Source: Chitinispirillaceae bacterium (GTDB taxonomy: Bacteria > Fibrobacterota > Chitinivibrionia > Chitinivibrionales > Chitinispirillaceae). From it: 13,764 nucleotides of DNA. The position numbers were made by a program, and so were the translations under genes. The notes beneath the pieces were generated by a model. It did no database searches. It saw only the letters and a program-made list of their open reading frames with translations, and was not told the origin of the DNA. Location: positions 1-13,764 of the forward strand of contig JAFGOU010000556.1 in the NCBI GenBank assembly GCA_016926315.1, read 5' to 3'. Of this stretch, positions 237-13,764 are shown in pieces; positions within the stretch are counted from its first letter, which is position 1, and each line of letters begins with the position of its first letter.

Positions 237-237
<1 letters not shown>
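91..237 (-). CDS. Possible 48-residue protein coupled to larB
   Basis: An ATG overlaps the larB stop as TAATG (ATG at 237-235) and opens a 48-codon frame ending in TGA at 91-93. The product begins MAMRGVRFFKKRF and is basic at its N-terminus. There is no separate Shine-Dalgarno site, but the TAATG arrangement allows re-initiation after larB. The frame runs 12 bp into the convergent cyclotransferase gene. I recognise no family and no motif, so this may be a chance frame; it is recorded because the junction geometry is that of a coupled gene pair. Confidence 0.2.
101..148. repeat. Imperfect inverted repeat between convergent genes
   Basis: GACACGGGAAA (101-111) faces TTTCCCGGTGTC (137-148), an 11-bp stem with one bulged G and a 25-nt loop. 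It starts inside the stop codon of the cyclotransferase gene and lies downstream of larB on the other strand. It could serve as a transcription end for either gene, but neither strand has a T-run after it, so terminator function is only a possibility. Confidence 0.35.
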
Positions 238-989
<752 letters not shown>

Positions 990-1062
990 GGGGACCTTTC
1001 GTTTCAAATCCCGGTCCCGGCGGCAGGAACATGACCTGCCCGGGGTACCCTCAATATACAAT

Positions 1063-1096
1063 AAAAAAGGGGCGGACATCAGTGCCGCCCCTTTTT
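1063..1096 (-). terminator. Rho-independent terminator, possibly bidirectional
   Basis: AAAAAGGGGCGG (1064-1075) pairs perfectly with CCGCCCCTTTTT (1085-1096) around a 9-nt loop. On the minus strand the hairpin follows the stop of the 57-codon gene by about 30 bp and is trailed by a T-run (complement of 1063-1068), so it should terminate that transcript. The plus strand also has a T-run (1092-1096), which would block read-through the other way. Confidence 0.85.
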
Positions 1097-1125
1097 CCGG
1101 ATTTTTTGACCGCCAAGGCTCGGTG

Positions 1126-1299
1126 TCAGGCGCTCACGTCAATGTTTGCGCCTTTGCCGATCTCCATCCCCACGGCCATCCGAACTGTCGCTTCCATCAA
1201 CTTTTCAGCCTGCTTGATCACTGCATTCGTCGCGGTTTCGAGAACCTGATGTACCGCCTGCGTCGAGCCTGCAACCAGGGCCTGAGAGGTTGCATCCAT
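1126..1299 (-). CDS. Small putative motility protein, YjfB-like
   Basis: 57 residues, start ATG at 1299, stop TGA at 1126-1128. It begins MDATSQALVAGSTQAVHQVL and ends GKGANIDVSA. The first 45 residues are predicted to be one continuous Ala-rich helix; the Gly...Asn-Ile-Asp-Val ending recalls the C-terminus of the short YjfB putative motility family. A strong AAGGGGG Shine-Dalgarno site sits 6-7 bases before the ATG. The gene has its own sigma-28-like promoter (1346-1372) and its own terminator (1063-1096), so it is a single-gene unit. Promoter type and sequence point the same way: expression with the flagellar/chemotaxis regulon. The molecular role of the family is unknown. That the gene is real is nearly certain; the family match comes from memory and is moderate. 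Confidence 0.75.
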   Translation of the reverse strand: MDATSQALVAGSTQAVHQVLETATNAVIKQAEKLMEATVRMAVGMEIGKGANIDVSA

Positions 1300-1345
1300 G
1301 CCGACCCCCTTGAGATAATTTGAAAAACAGAGACGCCTTTCAGAG

Positions 1346-1372
1346 GTATCGGCAGAAAGGGGCGGAACTTGA
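1346..1372 (-). promoter_or_regulatory. Sigma-28 (FliA/SigD)-type promoter
   Basis: Read on the minus strand, TCAAGTTC (1372-1365), exactly 11 bases, then GCCGATAC (1353-1346). The flagellar sigma-28 consensus is TAAAGTTT-N11-GCCGATAA. Matches are 6 of 8 in the -35 box, exact spacing, and 7 of 8 in the -10 box. Transcription would start near 1339, about 40 nt before the ATG of the 57-codon gene. The box overlaps nothing coding; it lies just after the stop of the phosphatase gene. Confidence 0.75.
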
Positions 1373-1380
1373 GGGTTATT

Positions 1381-1833
1381 TTACCTTCCCGAAACCGCGC
1401 CGCTGCGGATTTTTTGCAGCAGGTCATCCACCATGATCCGACACTCCGGCAGGGCCTTCGCAGCCGCCGCCTCACCCAGATCCTTGATTTTCCAGTAGAT
1501 GATCTTCCGGCCTTTCAGACTGTTTCGTTTTCTTACCATGGGCTGGTGCTCTTTTTTATCCAGGCAGACGATCAGGTCGTACAACGGCACTTCGTTCCCG
1601 GAAAGTTTCTGCGGTTTGCGAACCGGTTTTTTCACCGGGATACCGGATTTTTCAAGCTCAGCGACCGCATCGGCGGAAATCAGCCCCGGATTTTTCAGGC
1701 GCTCGAACTCTTCGGCCAGGCCGCGGGAAACGGCTCGGTGCGGCAGCGACTGGCGTGCGCATAAAGCGTTGAAATACTCCTCCGCAAACCGGGAACGGTA
1801 ATAATTTCCGGTGCAGAGAAAAAGCACGTTCAT
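1381..1833 (-). CDS. Low-molecular-weight protein tyrosine phosphatase family protein
   Basis: 150 residues. The N-terminal MNVLFLCTGNYYRSR carries the P-loop C-X5-R-S: nucleophile Cys7, Arg13 and Ser14. The candidate general-acid Asp118 sits in KIKDLGEA (115-122), where classical enzymes have Asp-Pro. The second cysteine that many family members carry beside the P-loop arginine (CRS) is replaced by tyrosine (YRS), so disulfide protection of the active site is unlikely. Members remove phosphate from protein tyrosine or related substrates; some relatives act on arsenate or phospho-arginine, so the substrate is open. The ATG at 1833 overlaps the stop of the upstream HAD gene as ATGA, so the two are translationally coupled and probably co-transcribed. 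The sigma-28 promoter starts right after its stop. Confidence 0.8.
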   Translation of the reverse strand: MNVLFLCTGNYYRSRFAEEYFNALCARQSLPHRAVSRGLAEEFERLKNPGLISADAVAELEKSGIPVKKPVRKPQKLSGNEVPLYDLIVCLDKKEHQPMVRKRNSLKGRKIIYWKIKDLGEAAAAKALPECRIMVDDLLQKIRSGAVSGR

Positions 1834-2648
1834 GGCCGCAGCAGGCCGTTAAGGACACCGACCGACTCCATGACCGCATCGGGTTTGACATGAGACAAAG
1901 CGACAGCCCGGGCAGTCGCTTCACCCGAAAGGACGCAGAGCGTTAACGCGCCGGCGTTTTTCCCGGCGGCGATGTCGGTATACAACCGGTCGCCAACCGC
2001 CACCGTCCGTTCCGCAGGCACGGAAAATTTCCTGCACAGGAGCCTGATCATATCGGGCGCAGGTTTCCCGATCACCAGGGGCCGCTTCCCGGTCGCCTTC
2101 TCGATCATAAAGCACATGGATCCGCAATCAGGAATGCTGCGACCGCCGTCGATCGGGCAGACATAATCGGGATTGGTCGCGATATAGCGTACGCCTCGGT
2201 CGATCAGTCCGCACGCCGTGCGCAGTTTTTTATACGTCAATTCGGTGTCGAATCCGGCCACCACGTAATCGACCGGTTCCGCGCCATCGCACGGGACAAG
2301 CCCGTACGACGCCAGCTCCGCGGCAAGGGAACGCGTGCCGAGCACGAAAATGCGCGCGCCGGGTTTTCTGCGGGCCAGATACATTCCGGTCGCCTGTCCC
2401 GAGGTGAACACGTTGTCCATGGTAACGGGAATGCCGAGACGGGCGATCTTGCGCCGGTAGTACGGTGCGCTGCGTGAAGAGTTGTTGGTCAGGAAAACAT
2501 AGGGGATACCCCGGTCACGGATACCGGCAATACATTCCCGTGCACCGGGGATCAGCGCGGAACCCAGATACACGGTGCCGTCGAGATCAAAAATAAACAG
2601 CCGGGCTTTTTGTAGCCGCTCCCGGATTTTAGCGCCGATAATTGGCAT
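1830..2648 (-). CDS. HAD-IIA (NagD-type) sugar-phosphate phosphatase
   Basis: 272 residues. A HAD-superfamily phosphatase of subfamily IIA, the group of NagD, 4-nitrophenylphosphatase and phosphoglycolate phosphatase. Motif I is FIFDLDGT (18-25; nucleophile Asp21, acid/base Asp23), motif II LTNNSS (53-58), motif III IGKPAPDM (193-200; Lys195), motif IV VGDRLYTDI (218-226; Asp220, Asp225). Between motifs II and III lies the C2-type cap. Length and motif spacing are normal for the family. The start is uncertain: ATG 2648 gives a family-like N-terminus but has no clear Shine-Dalgarno site, and an ATG at 2684 or a start further up to 2798 is possible. Its stop overlaps the start of the low-molecular-weight phosphatase gene. 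Substrate cannot be told from sequence. Confidence 0.85.
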   Translation of the reverse strand: MPIIGAKIRERLQKARLFIFDLDGTVYLGSALIPGARECIAGIRDRGIPYVFLTNNSSRSAPYYRRKIARLGIPVTMDNVFTSGQATGMYLARRKPGARIFVLGTRSLAAELASYGLVPCDGAEPVDYVVAGFDTELTYKKLRTACGLIDRGVRYIATNPDYVCPIDGGRSIPDCGSMCFMIEKATGKRPLVIGKPAPDMIRLLCRKFSVPAERTVAVGDRLYTDIAAGKNAGALTLCVLSGEATARAVALSHVKPDAVMESVGVLNGLLRP

Positions 2649-2755
2649 AGAACTGAAAACCGATCGGTTGTTGAACGGGCGCATCGCTATGCATACAGGA
2701 ATAAAATAGGTCGTGCGGGTCGGCGCACCACCGGCAAAAATGCTCCCTTTCGCCG

Positions 2756-4261
2756 CTACTCTTCCGTTTCCGCCGCGACGTCCACACCCTCCTTCCACGG
2801 CTCGAGCTCGCTCGAACGGGCGGACTTCCGCAATTTCCGCAGCGCCTTGATTTCGATCTGGCGGATCCGTTCGTTACTGAGCCTGAGCCGTTCACCCACC
2901 TCGCCAAGGGTCTTGATCCTGCCGTCATCAAGACCGAACCGCATTATCACCGTCTGTTTTTCCCTCTGATCAAGGGAATCCAGCGCGAGGTTGATATGCC
3001 TGCGCAAATCGGCAAGCGACAGCCGTTCAAACGGGTCCTCGGCGGCCGGATCCTCCAGGTATTCGCCGATCGTGGCATCATCATCGCCGACATGCATGTC
3101 GAGCGATACCGGGTTGAGCACGCTTTCAAGCGCATTTGTCACCTTTTCGGGAGAAACTTTCAGATGGTCCGCGATCTCCTCAATCGTCGGCTGCCTGCCG
3201 ACTTTCATGCAATACTCGCGCGAGTACTGGTCGATCTTGGAAAACAGGTCAAGCGTATTGGCAGGGACATGGATGGTCTTGGCCTTTTCGTTTATCGAGC
3301 GCAGGATCGCCTGACGTATCCACCAGATCGCATAGGTACTGAACTTATATCCCCGGTGGTAATCGAAGCTTTCCACCGCCGTGATGAGCCCCTTGTTGCC
3401 TTCCTGGATGAGATCGCTGATCTCAAGCCCTCGATGGATGTACCGCTTCGCCACACTGACCACGAGACGGACGTTCGATTCGATGATCGAACATTTAGCC
3501 TCGTCGCGCATGTCCTCCCAATAGGTGAATTCGTCAAGCGCCGTCTCGTTCTGCGAAGCCGCCAGCAGGGACCGGAACCTGGCGAGCAGATCGCGTATCT
3601 GGTGCGGATTGAGCTTGAGCTGCATGCAGATTTCCGTGCACTCCTCCTCAAGCCGTTCGATCGCTTCCGCGCGCCCGTCGGCGGACCCGGCCGGCGAACC
3701 ATTGCGTTGAAGAGTTTCCAGTTCCGCCCGTTTTTTCCTGATGGCGGCGATGACGTCAAGGAATTCCCGCGTCGCCCTGTCCATGCTCGCCTGGTCGGCC
3801 GAGAATTCGTCGTCAAGTTGCAACACCTCGGTGCACCGCACCTTCCCTTCCGAAAGCTTTTGCGCGATGTGATAGAGCGTTTCGATGATCACGGTTTCCC
3901 GGAACGCCCTGCTTAACATCTGGTGCCTGGCAAAACGGATCAGGATCGCATGCTGCACCTCCTGCCCACGGTTCATGAGCGGCACCTTGCCGAGCCCCTT
4001 GAGATACACCCAGGTCGGATCCGAAAAGTTCCCCCTGCCGTCGCCCGCGGCATGACGTCTTCCCGCCCTGATTGGACCCGGACCGGACCGGACCGGATGA
4101 ACCGTGATGCCGTGTTCCTTCAGGACCTCCCTGATCCTGACCTGCTCCGCGGCATCGGGCACCAGCTCCTCGATCTGCTCGTGGGTGACAAATCCCTGCA
4201 AACGGACATGTTTTCCGAGTTTCCTGAGTACCTTTTCCTCGAATGACGCTCTGACGCTCAT
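2756..4261 (-). CDS. RNA polymerase sigma-70 factor, RpoD/SigA type
   Basis: 501 residues. Regions in order: region 1.1-like domain (about 5-55, including [13 protein letters not shown]), region 1.2 ([20 protein letters not shown], 80-99), a non-conserved stretch rich in charged helices (about 110-245), region 2 (256-325, with [23 protein letters not shown] and [15 protein letters not shown]), region 3 (330-385), the 3.2 finger ([10 protein letters not shown], 386-395) and region 4 with its helix-turn-helix ([20 protein letters not shown], 451-470). A true region 1.1 is the mark of primary sigma factors. However, in region 2.4 the residue aligned with E. coli Thr440 is Leu320, while the Gln437 equivalent (Gln317) is kept, so this could be an RpoD paralogue. 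Start ATG 4261 is preceded by AAGGA. A sigma-70-like promoter lies about 90 bp upstream. Confidence 0.9.
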
Positions 4262-4351
4262 GGTTATCCTTACCGCCTGGACCGCGCTGCAATTATCCGG
4301 CGCACCGCCATTTCAGCAATAGAAGCGCACCGGCAGGGGAATACATTTTAT

Positions 4352-4380
4352 ATTGTATGATGAAAGGAAGGGAGGAGCAA
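4352..4380 (-). promoter_or_regulatory. Sigma-70-type promoter of the sigma factor gene
   Basis: On the minus strand TTGCTC (4380-4375), 17 bases, then TACAAT (4357-4352): 4 of 6 and 5 of 6 matches to TTGACA and TATAAT at optimal spacing. Transcription would start near 4345, giving a leader of about 84 nt before the ATG at 4261. Confidence 0.5.
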
Positions 4381-4439
4381 GACGTTAGGGAGCTACCGTA
4401 CCTAAAAAGCAAAGTTGCCAAAACAATTCCGGTTAGATA

Positions 4440-4579
4440 GTGTCTGTCCGAAAAGTCTTTGTTTTGACGTCATACCGGCGAAAGCCGGTATCCAGCTAGC
4501 GAAAACGGCCAGAAACCCTGGATTCCGGCTTTCGCCGGAATGACGGATTCTTAAAAAACAGGGGTTTTCGGACAGAAAC
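4440..4579. mobile_element. 140-bp MITE-like element with TA target duplication
   Basis: Terminal inverted repeats GTGTCTGTCCGAAAA (4440-4454) and TTTTCGGACAGAAAC (4565-4579) match at 14 of 15 positions, and each is flanked by TA (4438-4439 and 4580-4581). TA duplication is the hallmark of IS630/Tc1/mariner transposition. The interior has no coding capacity and consists mostly of two large palindromic arms, so this is a non-autonomous element depending on a transposase elsewhere. It fills the divergent space between the sigma gene and pyrK; its right end is 32 bp before the pyrK ATG. The assignment to an IS630-like mover is inferred from the TA alone. Confidence 0.7.
4468..4545. repeat. Nested palindromic arms within the MITE
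   Basis: Two 28-bp arms, 4468-4495 and 4518-4545, are inverted copies of each other at 26 of 28 positions. Each arm is itself a palindrome: left TACCGGC-GAAA-GCCGGTA, right TTCCGGC-TTTC-GCCGGAA. The two mismatches between the arms (4474 and 4489 in the left arm) fall on partners of the same local stem, so each hairpin stays fully paired. On the plus strand the left loop is GAAA; on the minus strand the right one is. The GCCGGAATGACG-type core resembles short dispersed palindromes seen in many bacterial genomes. Confidence 0.85.
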
Positions 4580-4611
4580 TAGATATATATTTTCAAGATC
4601 AATACCACCGT

Positions 4612-5385
4612 ATGAAGCACCTTACCCCCGCCATTGTCTCCAACCACCCCATCAGCACCGATTTCTTTGAGATGACCTTCTCGTGGGACGCGACCCCCGA
4701 GGTGCCGCGGCCAGGCCAGTTTTTCACGGTCAGGATATCGCGCGACACGGTACCTCTCCTGCGCCGTCCCTTTGCATTCTCTGCGCTCGATCCGGATAAA
4801 AAAACCGCCTCCATGATCTACCAAAAGCGGGGCCGGGGAACTGAAATCCTTACCGGCAAACGCCCGGGTGACGCACTCGACCTTCTCGGACCGCTGGGAA
4901 CACCCTTTCCCCTTCCCGACCCTGCTCCCCACGCGCTGCTCGTTGCCGGGGGGATCGGCATCGGACCCCTGTTGTTTCTCGCAACGGCAGTCACCTCGCG
5001 GGGCGGCAACGCCCGCATGATCTTCGGGTGCCGCAGCAGCGCAATGGTCCCTGACACCGACGGGTTCCGCGCCCTCTCCCCGGTCGTGTGCACCGATGAC
5101 GGCAGCGCCGGGTTCAAAGGCACCGCCGCGGAGTACCTCGCATCATCATATAAAGAACCGGTCATCGCCGGGACCACGATCTACGCCTGCGGTCCCCTGC
5201 CCATGCTCAAAGCGTGCCACGAGTTCGCCCGGAGCAGAGCGTGCGCCTGCATGGTGTCGGTCGAGCAGGTGATGGCGTGCGGCGTTGGCGCGTGCATGGG
5301 ATGCGCGGTAAAAATGGCGGGCGGAGGATTCAAACGCGCCTGTATCGAAGGTCCCGTGTTCGACAGCGGGGAAATAGCATGGTGA
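4612..5385 (+). CDS. pyrK: Dihydroorotate dehydrogenase B, electron-transfer subunit PyrK
   Basis: 257 residues. PyrK carries FAD and a 2Fe-2S cluster and passes electrons from dihydroorotate, via the FMN of PyrD, to NAD. The N-terminal FAD-binding barrel holds RRPFAFSAL (51-59), the NAD-binding half has VAGGIGIGPL (111-120) and YACGPLPML (191-199). The C-terminal cluster ligands are Cys223, Cys228, Cys231 and Cys244 (C-X4-C-X2-C-X12-C), the expected PyrK pattern. The length is normal. ATG 4612 has no good Shine-Dalgarno site; A/T-rich sequence and the MITE end lie just upstream, so the native leader may have been altered. It overlaps pyrD by 7 bp, so the two subunits are translationally coupled. 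Confidence 0.95.
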   Translation: MKHLTPAIVSNHPISTDFFEMTFSWDATPEVPRPGQFFTVRISRDTVPLLRRPFAFSALDPDKKTASMIYQKRGRGTEILTGKRPGDALDLLGPLGTPFPLPDPAPHALLVAGGIGIGPLLFLATAVTSRGGNARMIFGCRSSAMVPDTDGFRALSPVVCTDDGSAGFKGTAAEYLASSYKEPVIAGTTIYACGPLPMLKACHEFARSRACACMVSVEQVMACGVGACMGCAVKMAGGGFKRACIEGPVFDSGEIAW

Positions 5386-6260
5386 CGCCCCGGGACCTGA
5401 TCGTAACCATCGGCACGAAAACACTGCCCAATCCGGTCGGGGTCGCGTCCGGCACATTCGGCTATGGCAGCGAGTACGAAACCCTTATCGATCTCTCGCG
5501 GCTCGGGGCGATCTATACCAAGGCCGTCACGCTCGCGCCGCGCGAAGGAAACGACATCCCCCGGATCGTCGAGACCCCGTCGGGCATCCTGAACTCCATC
5601 GGTCTTGCCAACGTGGGGGTGGAGCGGTTCCTCGCCGAAAAACTTCCCGCGCTTTCCGCGCTTCCCTGCGCCATTATCGCCAACGTCGCCGGATCGACCG
5701 AAGACGAATACGCACAGGTGCTGGAACGGCTCGAATCCGCGGAAACGCTCTGGGGATACGAGATCAACGTATCGTGCCCTAATGTCAAGCACGGCGGCCT
5801 GGCGTTCGGCACCGATCCGCACCAGATCGAGCGGCTCACCGGGCGGCTCCGCGACCTCACGAAGAAACCGCTCATCATCAAACTCACGCCGAACGTGACC
5901 GATATCACGGTGATGGCGAAGGCAGCCGAGACCGCGGGCGCCGACGCGGTCTCGTGCATCAACACGCTCGTGGGCATGGTGATCGACACCCGCACGAAAA
6001 AACCGGTGCTGCCCTTTGGAAGCGGTGGCCTCTCAGGGCCGGCGATACGGCCCGTTGCGGTCGCCATGACCTGGAAGGTGTGCCGGGCGGTGACGATCCC
6101 GGTCATCGGCATGGGCGGCATCATGTGCGCCGACGACGCGCTCCAGTTCCTCATAGCCGGCGCAAAGGCGATCCAGGTGGGAACAGGAACCTTTGTGGAC
6201 CCGAGAATACCCGTGCAGGTGCTGGAGGGAATCGAGAAGTATCTTCTGGATCCGGTTTGA
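5379..6260 (+). CDS. pyrD: Dihydroorotate dehydrogenase B, catalytic subunit PyrD
   Basis: 293 residues. Cytoplasmic FMN enzyme oxidising dihydroorotate to orotate, the fourth step of pyrimidine synthesis. Class 1B features: YTKAVTLAPREGN (46-58; Lys48), INVSCPNVKHGG (129-140) with active-site Cys133 (class 2 enzymes use Ser), KLTPNVTDI (168-176), CINTLVGM (193-200) and phosphate-binding GMGGI (244-248) and GAKAIQVGTG (261-270). The partner pyrK directly upstream confirms the NAD-dependent heterotetramer type. I chose ATG 5379, preceded by GGGGA at 5368-5372; an in-frame start at 5214 would add 55 residues lying inside pyrK in another frame. Its stop is only 17 bp from the stop of the convergent beta-glucosidase gene, with no terminator visible between. 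Confidence 0.95.
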   Translation: MVTPRDLIVTIGTKTLPNPVGVASGTFGYGSEYETLIDLSRLGAIYTKAVTLAPREGNDIPRIVETPSGILNSIGLANVGVERFLAEKLPALSALPCAIIANVAGSTEDEYAQVLERLESAETLWGYEINVSCPNVKHGGLAFGTDPHQIERLTGRLRDLTKKPLIIKLTPNVTDITVMAKAAETAGADAVSCINTLVGMVIDTRTKKPVLPFGSGGLSGPAIRPVAVAMTWKVCRAVTIPVIGMGGIMCADDALQFLIAGAKAIQVGTGTFVDPRIPVQVLEGIEKYLLDPV

Positions 6261-6277
6261 CGGCAAGGAACCGGATT

Positions 6278-7702
6278 TCAGGCTCGAGTCCGACAGCGCG
6301 TCGCTTGGCGTGATGCGGACGTGGCTGGCGCAGTGACCTCCGCCCCTCCCGATGCTATCACCCTCCTGTACCACTCCCCCGAATCCTTGACGGTCCTCCG
6401 CTGCGTTTCGTAATCGACATGCACCAGCCCGAACCGTTTGGCGTATCCCTCGGCCCATTCGAAATTGTCCATGATCGACCAGTAGAAATAGCCGCGTCCG
6501 TCAACGCCGTCCCGGATCGCCCGCGCATACTCGGCGAGGTATCGTTTCATGAAATCGATGCGCTGGGGATCGCGGACCTTCCCGTCGGCCTGCACCCAGT
6601 CGTTGTTTGCCATGCCGTTCTCAGTGATGACGATCGGCAGTCGGTACCGTTCATGGTAATATTTCGGGCCCCAGTAAAGCGCCCGCGGGGTTACCGCCCA
6701 TCCCATGGCGGTCATGGGATGGCCCGGTTCATGGGGAACCGTTTCAGGGACCCCTCCCCTCCCGGCACGGACCCCGATGCCCTGGTAGATGTTGATCCCG
6801 AAGAAGTCCAGCGGCTGCCGTATGGTCTTCATGTCGTCCGGCGCGATGGAAGGCATGTCGCTTCCGAAAAGCGCGACGCCGTCATCCGGATACCGTCCCA
6901 GCACCATGGGATCGGAAAACCAGTTGTTGTTGAATACGTTTTTCTGCGTAATGGCGAACATGCTCGCCGCAGCGGCCGCACGGTCCTCGTCGCTTTCCGT
7001 GGCCGGATAATGGACAAAACTGTCGGGCGCCGCGCCGATGACCGGCGTTGTCCGGGCATGCGCCCTGATCGCGGCTACGGCCTTGCCATGGGCGAGCAGC
7101 GCGTGGTGGCCGGCGCGGAGTACTTCGGGAAACGGGCATTGCAGCCCGGGAGCGTGATACCCGGTCTGGTGGCCGTAGCCGATAAAACAGCGCGGCTCGT
7201 TGATGGTCATCCAGTGCGATACCCGGTCGGACAGGGCATCCACGACCACCCGGGCATAATCGGCGAACCAGTCGGCGCTCTCACGCGCGAGCCAGCCGCC
7301 TTTCCGGAACAGGGCGACCGGATAATCCCAGTGAAACAGGGTGACCCACGGTTCGATTCCGCACGCGAGGAGCGCATCGACAAGCGCCGAGTAGAAAGCG
7401 ATACCGCGTGCATTCGGTGCACCGTTCCCTTCCGGCAGCACACGCGGCCAGGAGAGGGAAAAACGGTACGCTCCGACGCCGATCTCCCTGAGAAGCTTCA
7501 CGTCCTCCCTGAAATGGTGGTAGTGGTCGCAGGATACGTCGCCGGTCTCTCCACGGGCCACCGCGCCCTCCCTGCGGCAGAATTCGTCCCAGACCGAGAG
7601 TCCCCTGCCGTCTTCTTCCGCCGCGCCCTCGATCTGATAGCTCGACGCCGCGGCGCCCCAGATAAAATGGCCGGGGAAAAGGGTCGATGGTTTCACCTCC
7701 AT
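6278..7702 (-). CDS. GH1 family beta-glucosidase
   Basis: 474 residues. Glycoside hydrolase family 1, retaining, hydrolysing cellobiose-like or aryl beta-glucosides and often beta-galactosides. N-terminal signature FIWGAAASSYQIEGA (13-27); acid/base Glu169 in TINEP (167-171); nucleophile Glu361 in ITENG (359-363); aglycone/glucose-binding end NFEWAEGYAKRFGLVHVDY (413-431). No signal peptide, so cytoplasmic: it probably acts on imported oligosaccharides. The last 25 residues (Ala/Thr/Ser/Arg-rich) extend beyond the family core. The start at 7702 lacks a clear upstream Shine-Dalgarno site; a GGAGGTG run lies inside codons 1-3 instead, with no ATG/GTG/TTG start after it in frame nearby. Convergent with pyrD, divergent from glgB. 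Phospho-glucosidase activity cannot be excluded from sequence, but no PTS gene is near. Confidence 0.92.
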   Translation of the reverse strand: MEVKPSTLFPGHFIWGAAASSYQIEGAAEEDGRGLSVWDEFCRREGAVARGETGDVSCDHYHHFREDVKLLREIGVGAYRFSLSWPRVLPEGNGAPNARGIAFYSALVDALLACGIEPWVTLFHWDYPVALFRKGGWLARESADWFADYARVVVDALSDRVSHWMTINEPRCFIGYGHQTGYHAPGLQCPFPEVLRAGHHALLAHGKAVAAIRAHARTTPVIGAAPDSFVHYPATESDEDRAAAAASMFAITQKNVFNNNWFSDPMVLGRYPDDGVALFGSDMPSIAPDDMKTIRQPLDFFGINIYQGIGVRAGRGGVPETVPHEPGHPMTAMGWAVTPRALYWGPKYYHERYRLPIVITENGMANNDWVQADGKVRDPQRIDFMKRYLAEYARAIRDGVDGRGYFYWSIMDNFEWAEGYAKRFGLVHVDYETQRRTVKDSGEWYRRVIASGGAEVTAPATSASRQATRCRTRA

Positions 7703-7709
7703 GGCGGCT

Positions 7710-7738
7710 TTGACTCTTTCTGTGTTGAATAGTACGAT
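7710..7738 (+). promoter_or_regulatory. Sigma-70-type promoter candidate for glgB
   Basis: TTGACT (7710-7715), 17 bases, TACGAT (7733-7738): 5 of 6 and 4 of 6 matches with ideal spacing, pointing towards glgB and giving a leader of about 100 nt. It begins immediately after the start codon region of the divergent beta-glucosidase gene. Confidence 0.45.
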
Positions 7739-7778
7739 ACGTAATGACGGCAGCCGAAAAAAAGAGTGCTGTCCGTGG

Positions 7779-7801
7779 TCCTGAAAATAGTAATTTCAGG
7801 A
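7779..7801. promoter_or_regulatory. Inverted repeat in the glgB leader
   Basis: TCCTGAAA (7779-7786) and TTTCAGGA (7794-7801) form a perfect 8-bp stem with a 7-nt loop ATAGTAA. It lies downstream of the candidate glgB promoter and upstream of the glgB Shine-Dalgarno site. It could be an operator for a dimeric repressor or a leader hairpin; the T7 run at 7812-7818 is 10 bases away, too far for a standard terminator. Confidence 0.4.
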
Positions 7802-7846
7802 TCCATAGGGATTTTTTTCCTGTTGGCCATAAGGATACAACGATTG

Positions 7847-9850
7847 ATGACCTCCGATACGACGGCGCCGACTCCGGCGGAAAAAAAATCGTCCCGCCTG
7901 ACCGACTTCGATATTTTCCTGTTTCGTCAGGGCAACCACTGCAGGCTCTATGAAAAACTCGGAGCGCATAAAACGACTTCCGACGATGGAACCGAGGGGT
8001 ATTATTTCGCGGTCTGGGCGCCGAACGCAAAGCGCGTTTCCGTGGTCGGCGATTTCAACGCCTGGAACAACGAGGCGAACCTCCTGTCCGCCCGGGCCGA
8101 CCATTCCGGCCTGTGGGAGGGGTTTATCCCGGGATTTCAAAAAGGGAATCTTTACAAATTCCATATCGAATCCTCGACCGGCACCTACGCCGCAAACCGG
8201 GGAGATCCCTATGCGGTCCACTGGGAAGTGCCGCCCTTAACCGCGCCGGTCGCCTGGGACCTCGATTACTCATGGAATGACGCGACCTGGATGCAGGTTC
8301 GTAAAAAACACAACGCCCTTACCGGACCGATCTCGATTTTCGAAGTTCACCTCGGTTCGTGGCGCAGAAAAAGCTCCGCAAAAGACGATTTTTTCAGCTA
8401 CCGGGAAATTGCCCCGCTCCTTGCGGCGTATGTAAAAAAGCTCGGATTTACCCATGTGGAGCTCATGCCGGTCATGGAGCACCCCTTTTACGGCTCATGG
8501 GGATACCAAACCACCGGCTATTTTGCGCCGACCAGCCGCTACGGAACGCCGCAGGATTTCATGTACCTGGTCGACCACCTGCACCAGCAGGGAATCGGCG
8601 TGATCCTCGACTGGGTGCCGTCGCACTTCCCGAGCGACGAGCACGGCCTCGTCTATTACGACGGCACGCACCTTTACGAGCATGCGGACCCGCGCGAGGG
8701 ATTCCACCCCGACTGGAAAAGTTATATCTTCAACTACGGCCGCGCGGAAGTCCGTTCATTCCTGTTTTCGAGCGCCCTGTTCTGGCTTGACAAATACCAT
8801 GCCGACGGGCTGCGGGTCGACGCCGTGGCATCGATGCTCTACCGCGACTATTCACGTCCGGCCGGGCAGTGGATCCCGAACAAGTTTGGCGGACGGGAAA
8901 ACCTCGAAGCCATCGACTTCCTCAAAAAACTCAACATAGAGGTGTACAAGGCCTTTCCCGACATTCAGATGACCGCGGAGGAGTCCACGGCCTGGCCGAT
9001 GGTGTCGAAACCGACCTATATCGGCGGACTGGGGTTCGGCATGAAATGGAACATGGGCTGGATGCACGACACGCTCTACTATATGGGCAAGGACCCGATC
9101 CACCGGAAGTACCACCACAACGAGCTCACCTTCACCATGCTCTACGCGTTTTCAGAGAATTACGTGCTGCCGCTTTCACACGACGAGGTCGTCCACGGCA
9201 AACGGTCGCTCGTCAACAAAATGCCGGGCGATGACTGGCAGCGGCTCGCCAACCTGCGGCTGCTGTATGCGTACCATTACACCCATCCCGGGAAAAAACT
9301 CCTGTTCATGGGCGGTGAATTCGCGCAGTGGGACGAGTGGGCGCACGATAAAGCGCTTGATGATGATCTTGCGCAGCACGACCGGCACAACGGCGTGCAG
9401 CTCCTCATCCACGACCTCAATACGCTCTATGCTTCAATAACCGCCCTGCATGAGTTTGATTTCGAGGGCAGGGGCTTCGAATGGATCGATTACAAGGACT
9501 GGGAGCACAGCGTGATAACGTTCCTTCGTAAAGGCAGCGATCCCGAGGACGTGGTGCTGGTTGCGTGCAATTTCACTCCGGTGCCCCATCACGACTATCA
9601 GGTGGGCGTTCCCCTTGCCGGCTTCTGGAAAGAGATCCTCAACAGCGACGCCGCGGTATACGGCGGCAGCAACCTCGGCAACGGCGGCGGCCTGGCAACC
9701 GTACACCAGGCGTGCTTCGGCAAAAAACAGTCGCTGCGACTTACCCTGCCTCCGCTGGCGGCGGTGCTCTTTACCTACGAAAAACCATCCGTGAAACGGC
9801 AGGAAAACGCCGGCGATGGTTCCGTCACCGCCGTCAGTGATGAAACCTAA
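7847..9850 (+). CDS. glgB: 1,4-alpha-glucan (glycogen) branching enzyme
   Basis: 667 residues. Transfers alpha-1,4 glucan segments to alpha-1,6 positions during glycogen synthesis; cytoplasmic, GH13. Layout: N-terminal CBM48 domain ([20 protein letters not shown], 51-70), (beta/alpha)8 barrel from about 185 and a C-terminal beta domain after about 550. Catalytic residues by motif and spacing: nucleophile Asp325 ([10 protein letters not shown]), acid/base Glu378 (AEEST), transition-state Asp446 ([10 protein letters not shown]); the 53 and 68 residue gaps equal those in E. coli GlgB. It is of the shorter type without the long extra N-terminal module. AAGGA at 7831-7835 fits either TTG 7844 or ATG 7847. 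The frame is open back to GTG 7766, but that would add a hydrophobic stretch unlike any branching enzyme. No glgA or glgC is nearby. Confidence 0.94.
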
Positions 9851-10264: not shown

Positions 10265-10894
10265 ATGGCCGATGCGCTTATCTTTGATTTTGACGGCACC
10301 ATCGCGGACACCTTCGATCTATCGCTCCATATCGGGCGAAACCTGCTCGATTCCCTTCATCTGCGCCATGTAAGCGAAGAGGAGATCGTCCACTTCCGGA
10401 ACAAGCCGCTTCGTCAGGCGGTGCGCAGCTTTAAAATCCCCCTGCGGAAAATCCCTTCCCTCATCATACGGATCCGCAGGGAGATACACGAGCATATCGA
10501 TGAGATCAAGCCGTTTGACGGAATGCGGGACGTTTTGCGCGCCGTCAAACCGCACTGTGCCTTCATGGGCATGGTTACCTCCAACTCGGAGGAAAATGTC
10601 GCGCATTTTCTCGCCCGATTCTCCATGGAATTCTTCGATGCGGGAGCCTATTCGTCCGCGATCCTCGGCAAGGCGTCGAAGCTGCGGCGGCTGATGCGGA
10701 AAAACGGCCTCGATCCGGAACGGGTTATTTATATCGGCGACACTACCGACGACGTTGAGGCGTGCAGGAAAGTGGGGATCAGGGCCGCCGCCGTTACCTG
10801 GGGGTATAACACGAAAGAGGTGCTGGAGCGCTCGAACCCCGAATACCTGTTCGAGCGGGTCGAAGACCTGCTCCGTCTGGTTTCCCTGAGCTGA
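10265..10894 (+). CDS. HAD-IA phosphatase (Gph-like)
   Basis: 209 residues. HAD-superfamily hydrolase with an inserted helical C1 cap, resembling phosphoglycolate phosphatases. Motif I IFDFDGT (6-12; Asp8 nucleophile, Asp10), motif II VTSNS (104-108), motif III lysine in GKASK (135-139), motif IV IGDTTDDVEA (157-166; Asp159, Asp162/163). The cap (about 17-85) is basic and helical. It starts at ATG 10265, 70 bp after the small Cys-rich gene, and its stop lies 10 bp before galE, which begins within the same unit. In this context a sugar-phosphate substrate, perhaps housekeeping removal of a dead-end sugar-1-phosphate, is plausible but unproven. Confidence 0.85.
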   Translation: MADALIFDFDGTIADTFDLSLHIGRNLLDSLHLRHVSEEEIVHFRNKPLRQAVRSFKIPLRKIPSLIIRIRREIHEHIDEIKPFDGMRDVLRAVKPHCAFMGMVTSNSEENVAHFLARFSMEFFDAGAYSSAILGKASKLRRLMRKNGLDPERVIYIGDTTDDVEACRKVGIRAAAVTWGYNTKEVLERSNPEYLFERVEDLLRLVSLS

Positions 10895-10904
10895 AAGGAA
10901 CCGA

Positions 10905-11903
10905 ATGTCCGCTGATCGTACCACCATCCTTGTTATCGGCGGTGCCGGGTATATCGGCAGCCACGTCTGCAAAACGATCCATCGCGCCGGTTATATCCCG
11001 GTAGCTTACGACAACCTCATTCACGGCCACCGCCATGCGGTCAAATGGGGGCCGTTTGAACACGGAGACCTCTCCGATTCGCGAAGGCTCCTGGAGGTCT
11101 TTTCCACCCACCGGCCGCAGGGGGTGGTCCATCTTGCGGCATTCGCCTATGTCGGGGAATCGGTTGAAAAACCGGCGAAATACTATCTGAACAACGTGGC
11201 GGGTTCGCTTTCGCTGCTCGAGGCCATGCGCGCGTCAAACGTGAACACGATGGTCTTTTCCAGCACCTGCGCGGTATACGGGGTACCGCGGACGATCCCC
11301 ATTACCGAACAGACACCGCCGGATCCGGTCAATCCCTACGGCGCCTCCAAACTCATGATCGAACGGATGATGCGGGACTACCACCGCGCCTACGGCCTCA
11401 ATTCGGTTTCGCTGCGGTATTTCAACGCCGCCGGCGCCGACCCGGAAGGTGAGATCGGCGAAGAACACAATCCTGAAACCCACCTGATCCCGCTGATCCT
11501 CGATGCCGCCTCAGGCCGCCGGGAGGCGCTTACCGTATTCGGCAACGACTATCCGACCAAAGACGGCACCTGCATCAGGGACTACATCCACGTCAGCGAT
11601 CTGGCGCGGGCGCATGTGCTCGCGCTGCGACTGATCGAAAGCAGCCCATCGACCTGTCTTTCCATGAATCTCGGCACCGGGAAGGGATACTCGATCCGGG
11701 AGCTGTTGGAAGTCGCCGGGAACATCACCGGGAAAAAAATCCCCCATGCCTTTGCAGCGCGCCGGGAGGGCGATCCTCCGGCGCTGATCGCGGACCCGGG
11801 CGAAGCATTCCGCCGGCTCGGCTGGAAGGCGGAGTATGCGGAAATCGAGACGATCATGACGCATGCGTGGGATTTTCACCAAAAAACCTTCAACGCCCAC
11901 TGA
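10905..11903 (+). CDS. galE: UDP-glucose 4-epimerase family protein (GalE type)
   Basis: 332 residues. Extended short-chain dehydrogenase that inverts C4 of a UDP-sugar through a bound NAD. NAD-binding GGAGYIGSH (12-20); catalytic triad Ser/Thr120-121 (FSSTCAVYG), Tyr145 and Lys149 in NPYGASK (143-149); LRYFNAAGADPEGEIGEEHN and DGTCIRDYIHV are classic GalE segments. The usual reaction is UDP-glucose/UDP-galactose; close relatives interconvert UDP-xylose and UDP-arabinose. Since the next gene is an arabinokinase-like kinase, UDP-arabinose 4-epimerase activity should be considered. AAAGGAA lies 4-10 bases before ATG 10905. It is 10 bp from the HAD gene and 21 bp from the kinase gene. Confidence 0.92.
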   Translation: MSADRTTILVIGGAGYIGSHVCKTIHRAGYIPVAYDNLIHGHRHAVKWGPFEHGDLSDSRRLLEVFSTHRPQGVVHLAAFAYVGESVEKPAKYYLNNVAGSLSLLEAMRASNVNTMVFSSTCAVYGVPRTIPITEQTPPDPVNPYGASKLMIERMMRDYHRAYGLNSVSLRYFNAAGADPEGEIGEEHNPETHLIPLILDAASGRREALTVFGNDYPTKDGTCIRDYIHVSDLARAHVLALRLIESSPSTCLSMNLGTGKGYSIRELLEVAGNITGKKIPHAFAARREGDPPALIADPGEAFRRLGWKAEYAEIETIMTHAWDFHQKTFNAH

Positions 11904-11924: not shown

Positions 11925-13376
11925 ATGTCAGCGAAACAACTGCCCTTTGAAGTCGCCGAATTCGAGCGACTACTCCAGAAACCGACCAGCGACCCGACCG
12001 GCCTTGCAGGGTTCTTCAACTGCGGCGAGATCATCATTTCCCGCGTGCCTGCCCGGCTCGATGTCATGGGCGGTATCGCCGATTACTCCGGCGCAAACGT
12101 CTGCGAGGCCGTGCTCAACCGCGGCATGCTCATGGCGCTTCAGCCACGCACCGACCGCACCCTGCGTATCCGCACCATGCAGGTGGGCAAACACAGCCTG
12201 CCGGTCGAAACGCGCATCCCGCTTGACTATTTCGAATCCGGCGAAGGGCTCGGCGCCTATTCCGACATCAAGGAGCTGTACCACGCCAATCCCCTCGTCT
12301 CATGGGTGGCCTACATCGGCGGCAGCATTTTTACGCTGCTCAAGGAGGAGTCGGTGCACCTCCCCTTCGGGTTCAGCATGCTCCTTTTAAGCGCCGTGCC
12401 GATGAATATCGGCATCGGCAGCTCGGCCGCGGTGGAGATCGGGACCCTCTGCTGTCTCAACTCCTATCTCCGGCTCAATCTCGACGCGGCGCGCATCGCG
12501 CGGCTCGGCCAGATGGCCGAGAACCATGTCGTGGGCGCTCCCTGCGGCATCATGGACCAGATCGCGATCACGAGCGGAAAACACCGGAAACTCATCCATA
12601 TTTTATGCCGGCCCGGAATGGTTCTTGACGAAGTGGAAATTCCTGCCGGAACCGGTTTCGTGGGCATCAACTCCATGATGCGTCACTCGGTGGCGGCCAA
12701 CCCTTACAGCGACGTGCGCATCGGCGCGTTCATGGGTAAACGCATCATCAATGACCTCCGGGCGAAAAAGGGGCACGGACCGCTCGATTACCTCACCGAG
12801 ATATCCGTTGACGAGATGAAGTCACTCTACCTGCAGCACCTGCCCGAAACCATGCTCGGATCGGATTTTACCGCCCGGTATAAAACCCACGACGATCCGG
12901 TGACGAAAATCCAGCCCGACGCCACCTACCGCGTACAAGGACCGGCCCTGCATCCGGTCGAGGAGAACGAGCGGGTGCTCGCCTTTATCGGGGCGCTTCA
13001 GGCCGCGTCGAACGGAGGCGGCGAGGCGGCGCTCGTCGCCGCCGGAGAGGCGATGTACGGCGCGCACGAAAGCTACCGCGCCAACTGCCATCTGTCGGTT
13101 GACGAAGTCGATTTCCTCGTGGAGGCGGTCCGCCGCAGGGGCGCGAAAAAGGGCCTGTACGGGGCTAAAATTACGGGAGGCGGAACAGGCGGAACAATCG
13201 CGGTTTTCGGCAGGATCGACGCATTGCAGGAACAGGTTCCCAGCATTGCCGTTGAATATTCGCGGAGGATCGGCATGCTGCCCGACGTTTTTGAGGGCAC
13301 CTCGCCCGGCGCCATGGAGTTCGGCGGCCGGAGGTATTGTTTCGGGCATGAGGGATGGTCGGGCGGCCAGGCATGA
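11925..13376 (+). CDS. GHMP sugar kinase, plant L-arabinokinase/galactokinase-like
   Basis: 483 residues. ATP-dependent kinase expected to phosphorylate C1 of a free sugar. Motif 1 is VPARLDVMGGIADYSG (41-56): galactokinases have GEH-DY here, while plant L-arabinokinase has the GGIADYSG form. Motif 2, the ATP loop, is VPMNIGIGSSAAVE (158-171). The catalytic base is Asp211 in GIMDQ (208-212). Motif 3 is GAKITGGGTGGT (413-424). Further blocks shared, as I recall them, with the plant enzyme are RHSV (253-256), RIGAFMG (265-271), LPETMLGSDF (306-315), HDDPVT (322-327), HP..EN.RV (343-351) and FEGTSPGA (456-463). The plant N-terminal glycosyltransferase-like domain is absent. Shine-Dalgarno GGGAGA precedes ATG 11925. 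It overlaps the next gene by 4 bp. Family certain; sugar specificity unknown. Confidence 0.9.
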   Translation: MSAKQLPFEVAEFERLLQKPTSDPTGLAGFFNCGEIIISRVPARLDVMGGIADYSGANVCEAVLNRGMLMALQPRTDRTLRIRTMQVGKHSLPVETRIPLDYFESGEGLGAYSDIKELYHANPLVSWVAYIGGSIFTLLKEESVHLPFGFSMLLLSAVPMNIGIGSSAAVEIGTLCCLNSYLRLNLDAARIARLGQMAENHVVGAPCGIMDQIAITSGKHRKLIHILCRPGMVLDEVEIPAGTGFVGINSMMRHSVAANPYSDVRIGAFMGKRIINDLRAKKGHGPLDYLTEISVDEMKSLYLQHLPETMLGSDFTARYKTHDDPVTKIQPDATYRVQGPALHPVEENERVLAFIGALQAASNGGGEAALVAAGEAMYGAHESYRANCHLSVDEVDFLVEAVRRRGAKKGLYGAKITGGGTGGTIAVFGRIDALQEQVPSIAVEYSRRIGMLPDVFEGTSPGAMEFGGRRYCFGHEGWSGGQA

Positions 13377-13764
13377 GCGGCTCCCGTGTCCGCAAAGCGA
13401 TCGTACCCGCGGCAGGCCTCGGCACGCGCCATTTCCCGGCCTCCCATGCCGTAAAAAAGGAGCTGTTTCCGGTGGTCGGGCCCGACGGCATCGCCCGGGC
13501 GCTCATCCATTACCACCTCGTCGAACTCGTGGCAGCCGGCATTGAGGACCTATGCATCATCGTCCAGCCCGGCGACGACAGCGCGATACGCGCCTACCTG
13601 GCCGGCCCGGACGACGACTACCTTCGCAGGCTCGAAAAATACCCTGAACTGCACCGTGAAGCGCTCTCCCTGCGCGAGCTTGCCAAACGGGTGACGTTTG
13701 CGGTCCAGCACGAGCAGGAGGGGTACGGCCACGCGGTCTATCAGACAAAAGCGTTCGCGGCCAA
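13373..13764 (+). CDS. GalU-like UTP:sugar-1-phosphate uridylyltransferase, 5' part
   Basis: 130 codons before the window ends. Begins MSGSRVRKAIVPAAGLGTRH. The nucleotide-binding loop AAGLGTR (13-19) and KKE (28-30) correspond to GLGTR and PKE of GalU; GYGHAVYQTKA near the edge matches the GLGHAV block. The loop between them, HFPASHAVKKELFPV, deviates from the standard LPATKA-PKEMLPI, so this is a divergent member rather than a textbook GalU. Expected reaction: sugar-1-phosphate plus UTP to UDP-sugar and pyrophosphate. Its ATG overlaps the kinase stop as ATGA, which suggests equimolar production with the kinase and a shared pathway. The C-terminal sugar-binding half is missing, so specificity cannot be judged. 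Confidence 0.85.
   Translation, partial: MSGSRVRKAIVPAAGLGTRHFPASHAVKKELFPVVGPDGIARALIHYHLVELVAAGIEDLCIIVQPGDDSAIRAYLAGPDDDYLRRLEKYPELHREALSLRELAKRVTFAVQHEQEGYGHAVYQTKAFAA

Follow-up and report, generated by a model that had tools for sequence, protein, structure and literature searches.

A stand-alone bacterial ARA1-like sugar kinase and its GalU-like partner: a candidate nucleotide-sugar salvage module

Described sugar-1-kinases and the kinase of the window

Salvage by the L-arabinokinase ARA1 and USP has been described in plants (in the relevant passages of PMC5897480 and PMC12281597), and a kinase followed by a pyrophosphorylase makes up the Isselbacher route (as outlined in PMC6329318). 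Full-length plant ARA1 is ~960 to 1030 aa long and carries an N-terminal glycosyltransferase-like domain (partly from PMC12281597). A GHMP sugar-1-kinase is also tied physically to a bacterial-type nucleotidyltransferase in the zebrafish glucuronokinase/putative pyrophosphorylase, although there the kinase branch and the sugar are different and the nucleotidyltransferase is N-terminal in one fused protein; the passages of PMC3938481 that treat this protein call its pyrophosphorylase putative and give the pyrophosphorylase activity of the Xenopus homologue as not confirmed. A Bifidobacterium UDP-sugar pyrophosphorylase, which we liken by description only to the partner enzyme discussed below, has been evaluated on L-arabinose-1-phosphate, the substrate that we propose for that partner (PMC5974040).

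The closest protein of solved structure is AbGHMP from Acidobacteria (PDB 9ulx and 9uly), a stand-alone bacterial kinase of ~490 aa; the AbGHMP stretch is identical to P0241, a protein from an Acidobacteria MAG. Our searches of the open-access literature turned up no publication on AbGHMP or 9ULX and, among the papers listed, none on a bacterial arabinokinase of the family described here, and in the papers searched we found no experimental test of the galactokinase or L-arabinokinase label on these proteins. Thousands of predicted proteins match our kinase. Of 7998 candidates scored in a protein search, 6103 had E ≤ 0.001, distant ones included, and the JGI function names among the matches listed were L-arabinokinase or galactokinase. 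With the database label L-arabinokinase and a solved structure for a sister-group member, AbGHMP, proteins of this kind are already known, and what is new is the clade to which our kinase belongs, together with its dedicated GalU-like partner.

We analyzed a 13,764-nucleotide stretch of DNA from a Chitinispirillaceae bacterium (the window). A 483-aa ORF with an ATG start lies at 11925..13376 on the plus strand, exactly where a sequence-only reading had placed a bacterial stand-alone kinase resembling the kinase domain of ARA1. Full-length matches, a single Pfam domain, and the trees described below confirmed that description, and we predict that the ORF encodes a stand-alone ARA1-like GHMP sugar-1-kinase. 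GHMP_kinases_N (PF00288; 62 bits against a gathering score of 22.3; E 6e-17) was the only Pfam domain above its gathering score, placing the protein in the GHMP kinase superfamily. The three GHMP motifs are all represented, with Arg44, Asp53, Asp211, Ser166-Ser167-Ala168, and GGG-x-GG invariant. Pfam profiles found no N-terminal glycosyltransferase-like domain of the plant ARA1 kind in the 483 aa, and the kinase does not have the plant ARA1 architecture.

In a database of 5.8 billion sequences, plant L-arabinokinases matched the kinase at 35 to 39% identity over 90 to 97% of the query (E ~1e-80), which chance would not produce. The homology to the plant ARA1 kinase domain extends over the full length of the kinase, which also has the GGIADYSG motif, and motif 1 and an insertion are the same in both; the plant enzyme differs in belonging to another clade and in having USP as its partner, where the window has a GalU-type gene. 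In the PDB, AbGHMP was the best match (E 5e-90), with query residues 15 to 470 matched and motif 1 identical, followed by galactokinases at ~1e-21 and weaker. AbGHMP differs in being 38% identical to the window kinase and in sitting in the plant-ARA1 clade.

In line with the sequence-only reading, an ordinary galactokinase was ruled out by motif 1, by tree position, and by model cut-offs. Five NCBIfam galactokinase models matched the kinase at 103 to 141 bits, all below their cut-offs of 227 to 509 (for TIGR00131, 124.6 against 226.65), and identity to Escherichia coli GalK was 25%. The galactose-binding signature PF10509 fell just under its cut-off in the window kinase (19.8 against 23.1 bits) and was passed by two proteins of the same clade, L055 (23.8) and L058 (25.9); this signature fails to discriminate galactokinase from kinases of the window type.

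Motif 1, conserved residues, and the insertion

Motif 1 reads RLDVMGGIADYSG (residues 44 to 56; 12054..12092, plus strand). In the alignment, Arg44, Asp53, and Tyr54 are kept, and Gly50-Ile51 stands where galactokinases (R-x4-GEHTDY) have Glu-His, so that GEH becomes GGI and the GEH-T-DY galactokinase signature is lost, as the sequence-only reading had reported. The alignment also located the phosphate-binding loop, PMNIGIGSSAAVE (residues 159 to 171; 12399..12437, plus strand), at which plant rows read PEGKGVSSSA(A/S)(L/V)E; GIMDQ (residues 208 to 212; 12546..12560, plus strand), which holds the predicted catalytic residue, Asp211; and motif 3, LYGAKITGGGTGGT (13155..13196, plus strand). The stretch LPETMLGSDF ... 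HDDPVT (residues 306 to 327; 12840..12905, plus strand), part of a family-specific insertion, is a gap in three aligned galactokinase rows.

Several long blocks had earlier been said to agree with ARA1, and this proved correct. We located all six (12054-12092, 12840-12869, 12888-12905, 12951-12977, 13155-13196, and 13290-13313) and compared them with plant L-arabinokinase P0179. RLDVMGGIADYSG and HDDPVT are identical to the plant sequence (13/13 and 6/6 residues); LYGAKITGGGTGGT and FEGTSPGA have one mismatch each, HPVEENERV has three, and LPETMLGSDF has four.

We then relied on a residue alignment of 21 rows from the clade of the window kinase (window-type kinases), 9 plant rows, 25 bacterial ARA1-type rows (AbGHMP included), and 10 galK rows. 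Insertion positions P307, G312, F315, and D324 are common to window-type and ARA1-type kinases and are gaps in all 10 galK rows. The equivalents of E. coli GalK R28, D37, Y38, D174, and Y223 are the same residue in every row; Arg44, Asp53, Asp211, and Tyr261, at the R28, D37, D174, and Y223 positions, are also invariant in a 32-row alignment. The aligned GalK residues bind sugar, and the motif-1 Glu of GalK lies near O6; among the papers listed in our literature searches, none stated the contacts of Glu43. The window kinase therefore resembles canonical GalK in its GHMP family and in keeping the catalytic Asp, the Arg, and the sugar-binding Asp and Tyr, and it differs in motif 1, in the extra insertion, and in its scores. 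Our prediction that Asp211 is the catalytic Asp is modeled on fucokinase, for which the part of PMC11982464 dealing with catalysis describes Asp762 as the general base and assigns roles to Arg. When we mapped the Arabidopsis ara1-1 change, E655K (as given in PMC12281597, in its account of that allele), by distance from the C terminus, two Tarenaya rows had no Glu at the position, and this comparison was dropped.

The positions of GalK E34-H35 are Gly-Ile in 21/21 window-type and 9/9 plant rows; among bacterial ARA1-type rows, the first is Gly in 25/25 and the second is Ile in 80%. Three of the 10 outgroup galactokinase rows, L045, L046, and L047, read GNHTDY instead of GEHTDY; all three exceed the cut-off of the galK model, L047 only once its two pieces are joined. 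Loss of the Glu therefore does not by itself fix the substrate, and the sequence-only argument for a pentose stays tentative. In the window kinase, the motif-1 His is lost as well.

An enzyme-dead or regulatory GHMP protein is extremely improbable here. Some galactokinase-like proteins are regulators, e.g., yeast Gal3. Nothing specific favors such a role for the window kinase, and against it stand the retention, in 21/21 window-type rows, of Arg44, Asp211, and the phosphate-loop residues Ser166-Ser167-Ala168, and the conserved coupling to a nucleotidyltransferase.

Window-type kinases are unlike ARA1-type kinases at several conserved positions, including Ala43, Cys60, Gly67, Asn161, Arg229, and Ser391 (the last two match galK), and specificity therefore need not carry over from one group to the other. 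This bears on the idea that the enzyme is a sugar-1-kinase of different or broad specificity (for D-fucose, for D-galactose and L-arabinose together, or for an unusual galacto-configured sugar) that would feed synthesis of UDP- or other NDP-sugars. The conserved Ala43, Cys60, Gly67, and Asn161 of the group, and its separation as a deep clade with 100/100 support, are in favor of this idea, which we nonetheless regard as quite unlikely, given that ARA1-type kinases and galactokinase have identical residues at the core sugar-binding positions.

Tree position, distribution, and the origin of the plant enzyme

We inferred three maximum-likelihood trees, of 64, 58, and 56 rows. The first was made from 68 rows, leaving out L049 and L050 (below the galK cut-off), L060 (short), and P0126 (a plant row with an extra insert); for the other two, further long-branch or redundant rows were dropped, and in the 56-row tree eight Acidobacterial rows were added and P0241 replaced the AbGHMP fragment. 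Long branches remain, and support outside the forks cited here is rough. In all three trees, galactokinases split from all other rows with 100/100 support, and window-type kinases formed one clade, also with 100/100 support. The window kinase thus groups with ARA1 apart from the galactokinases and does not nest among them.

Neither does it fall inside the subclade of plant ARA1. Plants, the Acidobacterial (AbGHMP-type) kinases, the GalT-fused kinases, and most bacterial ARA1-type rows formed a clade that excludes the window type, with support of 100/97 in the 58-row tree and 100/96 in the 56-row tree; with the longest branches kept (64 rows), the corresponding fork had only 80/87. Constraining plants to group with the window type in the 58-row tree cost 28.7 log-likelihood units (AU p 0.034, a guide, as the group tested was picked after the 64-row tree). 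Identities run the same way: 37 to 38% between the window kinase and two plant rows, and 49 to 52% between AbGHMP and nine plant rows. The sequence-only reading had suggested that a single-domain bacterial form might mark the source of, or a relative of, the plant enzyme. A relative it is; as a source, the window clade was rejected by the 58- and 56-row trees. By these sequence comparisons, the window-type clade is a sister lineage to the ARA1-type kinases, and the origin of plant arabinokinase points instead to the branch that holds the Acidobacterial and GalT-linked kinases.

The 120 matches listed in the protein search were 73 to 91% identical to the kinase, and the best organism-named match among them came from Chitinispirillaceae (87%). 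A GTDB contig scan with exact peptide patterns, which reaches close relatives only, returned 27 loci, 77% (L001) and 69 to 76% (the other 26) identical to the window kinase. They come from MAGs labeled as Verrucomicrobia groups, Phycisphaerae/Phycisphaerales, Fibrobacteres, or simply bacterium. We also drew genomes evenly from three phyla: that of G004, taken to be Verrucomicrobiota; that of G019, taken to be Planctomycetota; and that of G001, taken to be Fibrobacterota, each draw including its seed genome. Relatives of at least 55% identity were sparse, being present in 7/240, 1/199, and 1/120 genomes, respectively. The counts of kinase-partner adjacency given below rest on ORF calling without a filter for the longest overlapping frame, because such a filter hid five kinases. 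One genome, G002, carries a window-type kinase without an adjacent partner (L002) and a second ARA1-like kinase, L048 (37% identity).

The identities of the window kinase to the 27 loci (77% to L001 and 69 to 76% to the rest) span a narrow range, unlike those of a neighboring gene. For the window PyrD, identity is 79% with the copy in Fibrobacteres genome G001 but only 46 to 50% with the best full-length matches elsewhere (G009, G006, G002, and G027); of the 20 genomes compared, 17 had any match, and most of the others were weaker and probably not orthologous. From this difference, it is fair to infer that the kinase and its partner have been transferred together between phyla.

In a search admitting long proteins, the 120 matches listed were mostly plant L-arabinokinases. 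Nine of the 120 were GalT-kinase fusions (P0123, P0124, P0127, P0132, P0141, P0168, P0176 from Gemmataceae, P0184, and P0214; one was checked with profiles), and none was a window-type kinase fused to its own partner. In P0121 (Armatimonadota) and P0122, an N-acetylmuramoyl-L-alanine amidase domain is fused to an ARA1-type kinase (one of the two was checked by profiles). Genomes G219 and G036, which have canonical galK, hold their ARA1-type kinases in long frames of a size like that of the GalT fusions.

The overlapping partner gene and the likely sugar

The strongest functional clue is a gene that the sequence-only reading did not mention. Its start overlaps the kinase stop in the ATGA manner (13373-13376), and it continues on the plus strand (13373..13764) until it runs off the window. 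PF00483 (NTP_transferase) matched both this in-frame fragment and its full-length homologue in L001, and we identify the gene, from this domain, its adjacency, and its co-occurrence with the kinase, as a putative GalU-like nucleotidyltransferase; the L001 homologue is well under the GalU equivalog cut-off (117.7 against 326.8 bits). Upstream of the kinase by 21 bp lies galE, encoding UDP-glucose 4-epimerase (10905..11903, plus strand; TIGR01179, 424 bits against a cut-off of 262), and a HAD phosphatase-like gene (10265..10894, plus strand) heads the presumed operon, its membership being suggested by spacing only. The order HAD-galE-kinase-nucleotidyltransferase is thus that of the window, and galE is also upstream of the kinase, in the same order, in L001.

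In 24/27 loci from the contig scan, the kinase is followed on its own strand by a partner ORF. The exceptions are L002 and L003, which have no adjacent partner, and L020, which ends 0.45 kb past the kinase; the gap between the genes widens to ~1.1 kb in L014 and L016. The partner also adjoins the kinase in 6/6 further Verrucomicrobiota loci (L053-L058), and homologues of 64 to 74% identity occur in exactly the 7/240 Verrucomicrobiota genomes that hold a window-type kinase, the next best matches being at ≤42%. The Bifidobacterium UDP-sugar pyrophosphorylase is not known to have an ARA1-like kinase partner.

We fetched 13 of these next-best matches, L073-L085, from Verrucomicrobiota. All except L079, which is separate, lie in frames of ~640 to 690 aa in which the partner-related nucleotidyltransferase is the C-terminal part, and the two that were profiled (L073 and L082) have a different GHMP kinase ahead of it, with GRICLFGEHSDW in L073. 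Partners of window-type kinases have the motif PASHAV (window, L001, L004, L012, L019, and L023) or PASQAV (L055 and L058), whereas fused L073 and separate L079 have PATK. This difference may reflect a changed sugar-1-phosphate specificity of the partner, a point that also suits a kinase of different or broad specificity.

With about an even chance of being right, we propose that kinase and partner form a two-gene nucleotide-sugar salvage module, its sugar likeliest L-arabinose. The kinase would use ATP to phosphorylate a galacto-configured sugar at C1, most likely L-arabinopyranose, and, unlike galactokinase, would make no contact with a C6 hydroxyl. The partner would couple the sugar-1-phosphate to UTP to give a UDP-sugar, which GalE, encoded next door in this lineage, could epimerize at C4. 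By analogy, such a module most probably works like plant ARA1 and USP, with a bacterial GalU-type enzyme replacing USP. The sequences themselves establish the family, the motif, the tree position, and the coupling and co-occurrence of the two genes, and the related nucleotidyltransferase found behind another GHMP kinase in L073 and L082 also speaks for the module; we infer the activity, the order of the steps, UTP as the donor, and, above all, the sugar. Three observations favor L-arabinose: the relatedness to ARA1, the Gly-Ile pair of motif 1, and the existence of a separate galK.

Galactose, in turn, is favored by galE and by the link of the sister group to GalT, classically a galactose enzyme. 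Bacterial ARA1-type kinases of the same wider family differ from the window kinase, which adjoins a pyrophosphorylase-like gene, in being fused to GalT (as in Gemmataceae) or having it nearby: a GalT match lies 0.5 to 2.1 kb away in 5/5 cases from the Verrucomicrobiota draw. For the wider family, this link speaks for galactose. galE stands beside 2/17 ARA1-type loci (L033 and L039), these loci holding ~1.5 kb or less per side. In L036, an ARA1-type locus with a long-branch row, a partner-like ORF fragment (46% identity over 83 aa) occurs ~1.1 kb downstream, so the partner split between window-type and ARA1-type kinases is not absolute.

The corresponding alternative is that, its motif apart, the kinase is simply a galactokinase. 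It would phosphorylate D-galactose, and the GalU-like partner would turn galactose-1-phosphate into UDP-galactose for GalE in an Isselbacher-type route, replacing GalT. The adjoining galE here and in L001, the GalT link of the sister kinases, and the retention of the other core galactokinase residues fit this account, as does the presence of GalT (PF01087) in only 4/33 window-type genomes. GalT is scarce in the phylum regardless, however (12/240 genomes of the Verrucomicrobiota draw), and we dropped its anti-correlation with the kinase as proof of a bypass. Canonical galK scored above its cut-off in 21/33 window-type genomes (19/27 and 2/6), which are mostly MAGs of unstated completeness, making absences soft; the figures elsewhere were 12/16 ARA1-type genomes, 21/26 other Verrucomicrobiota from the same draw, and 8/14 controls. 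This coexistence implies that the kinase is not simply a replacement for galK, an idea that we abandoned as unsupported. Together with a motif 1 that lacks the Glu as well as the His of GEH and the clear separation from galK in the trees, it makes a galactokinase unlikely.

For the L-arabinose module, two features of the same 33 genomes complicate matters. araA is present in 24/33, so L-arabinose has another fate. No genome (0/33) had GalU above the strict cut-off, which only 5/14 control genomes pass, and the best match to the GalU model was the gene beside the kinase in 28/33; UDPGP (PF01704) was found in 20/33, 10 of the matches being strong, with no match in 13/33. The partner might therefore mainly make UDP-glucose, and it may itself be the UDP-glucose pyrophosphorylase of these genomes.

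A wider proposal, possible though somewhat doubtful, is that these bacteria have a counterpart of the plant salvage set, comprising canonical GalK, a second, ARA1-like kinase for L-arabinose, a dedicated UDP-sugar pyrophosphorylase derived from GalU, and GalE, in most cases with no GalT. It would provide a direct route from free arabinose to UDP-L-arabinopyranose beside araA-type catabolism; its parts would have come together separately from those of the plant set and would have passed from phylum to phylum as a cassette of two genes. Conserved as a pair, the kinase and its presumed pyrophosphorylase lend themselves to a one-pot test of the assignment and could supply compact enzymes for the synthesis of UDP-L-arabinose or UDP-galactose.

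The rest of the window, from 237 to 9850, holds ordinary neighbors: an AIRC-domain protein, which we take to be LarB-like, a LMW phosphatase, a HAD phosphatase, a sigma-70 factor, a PyrK-like protein, PyrD, a GH1 glycosidase, and GlgB.
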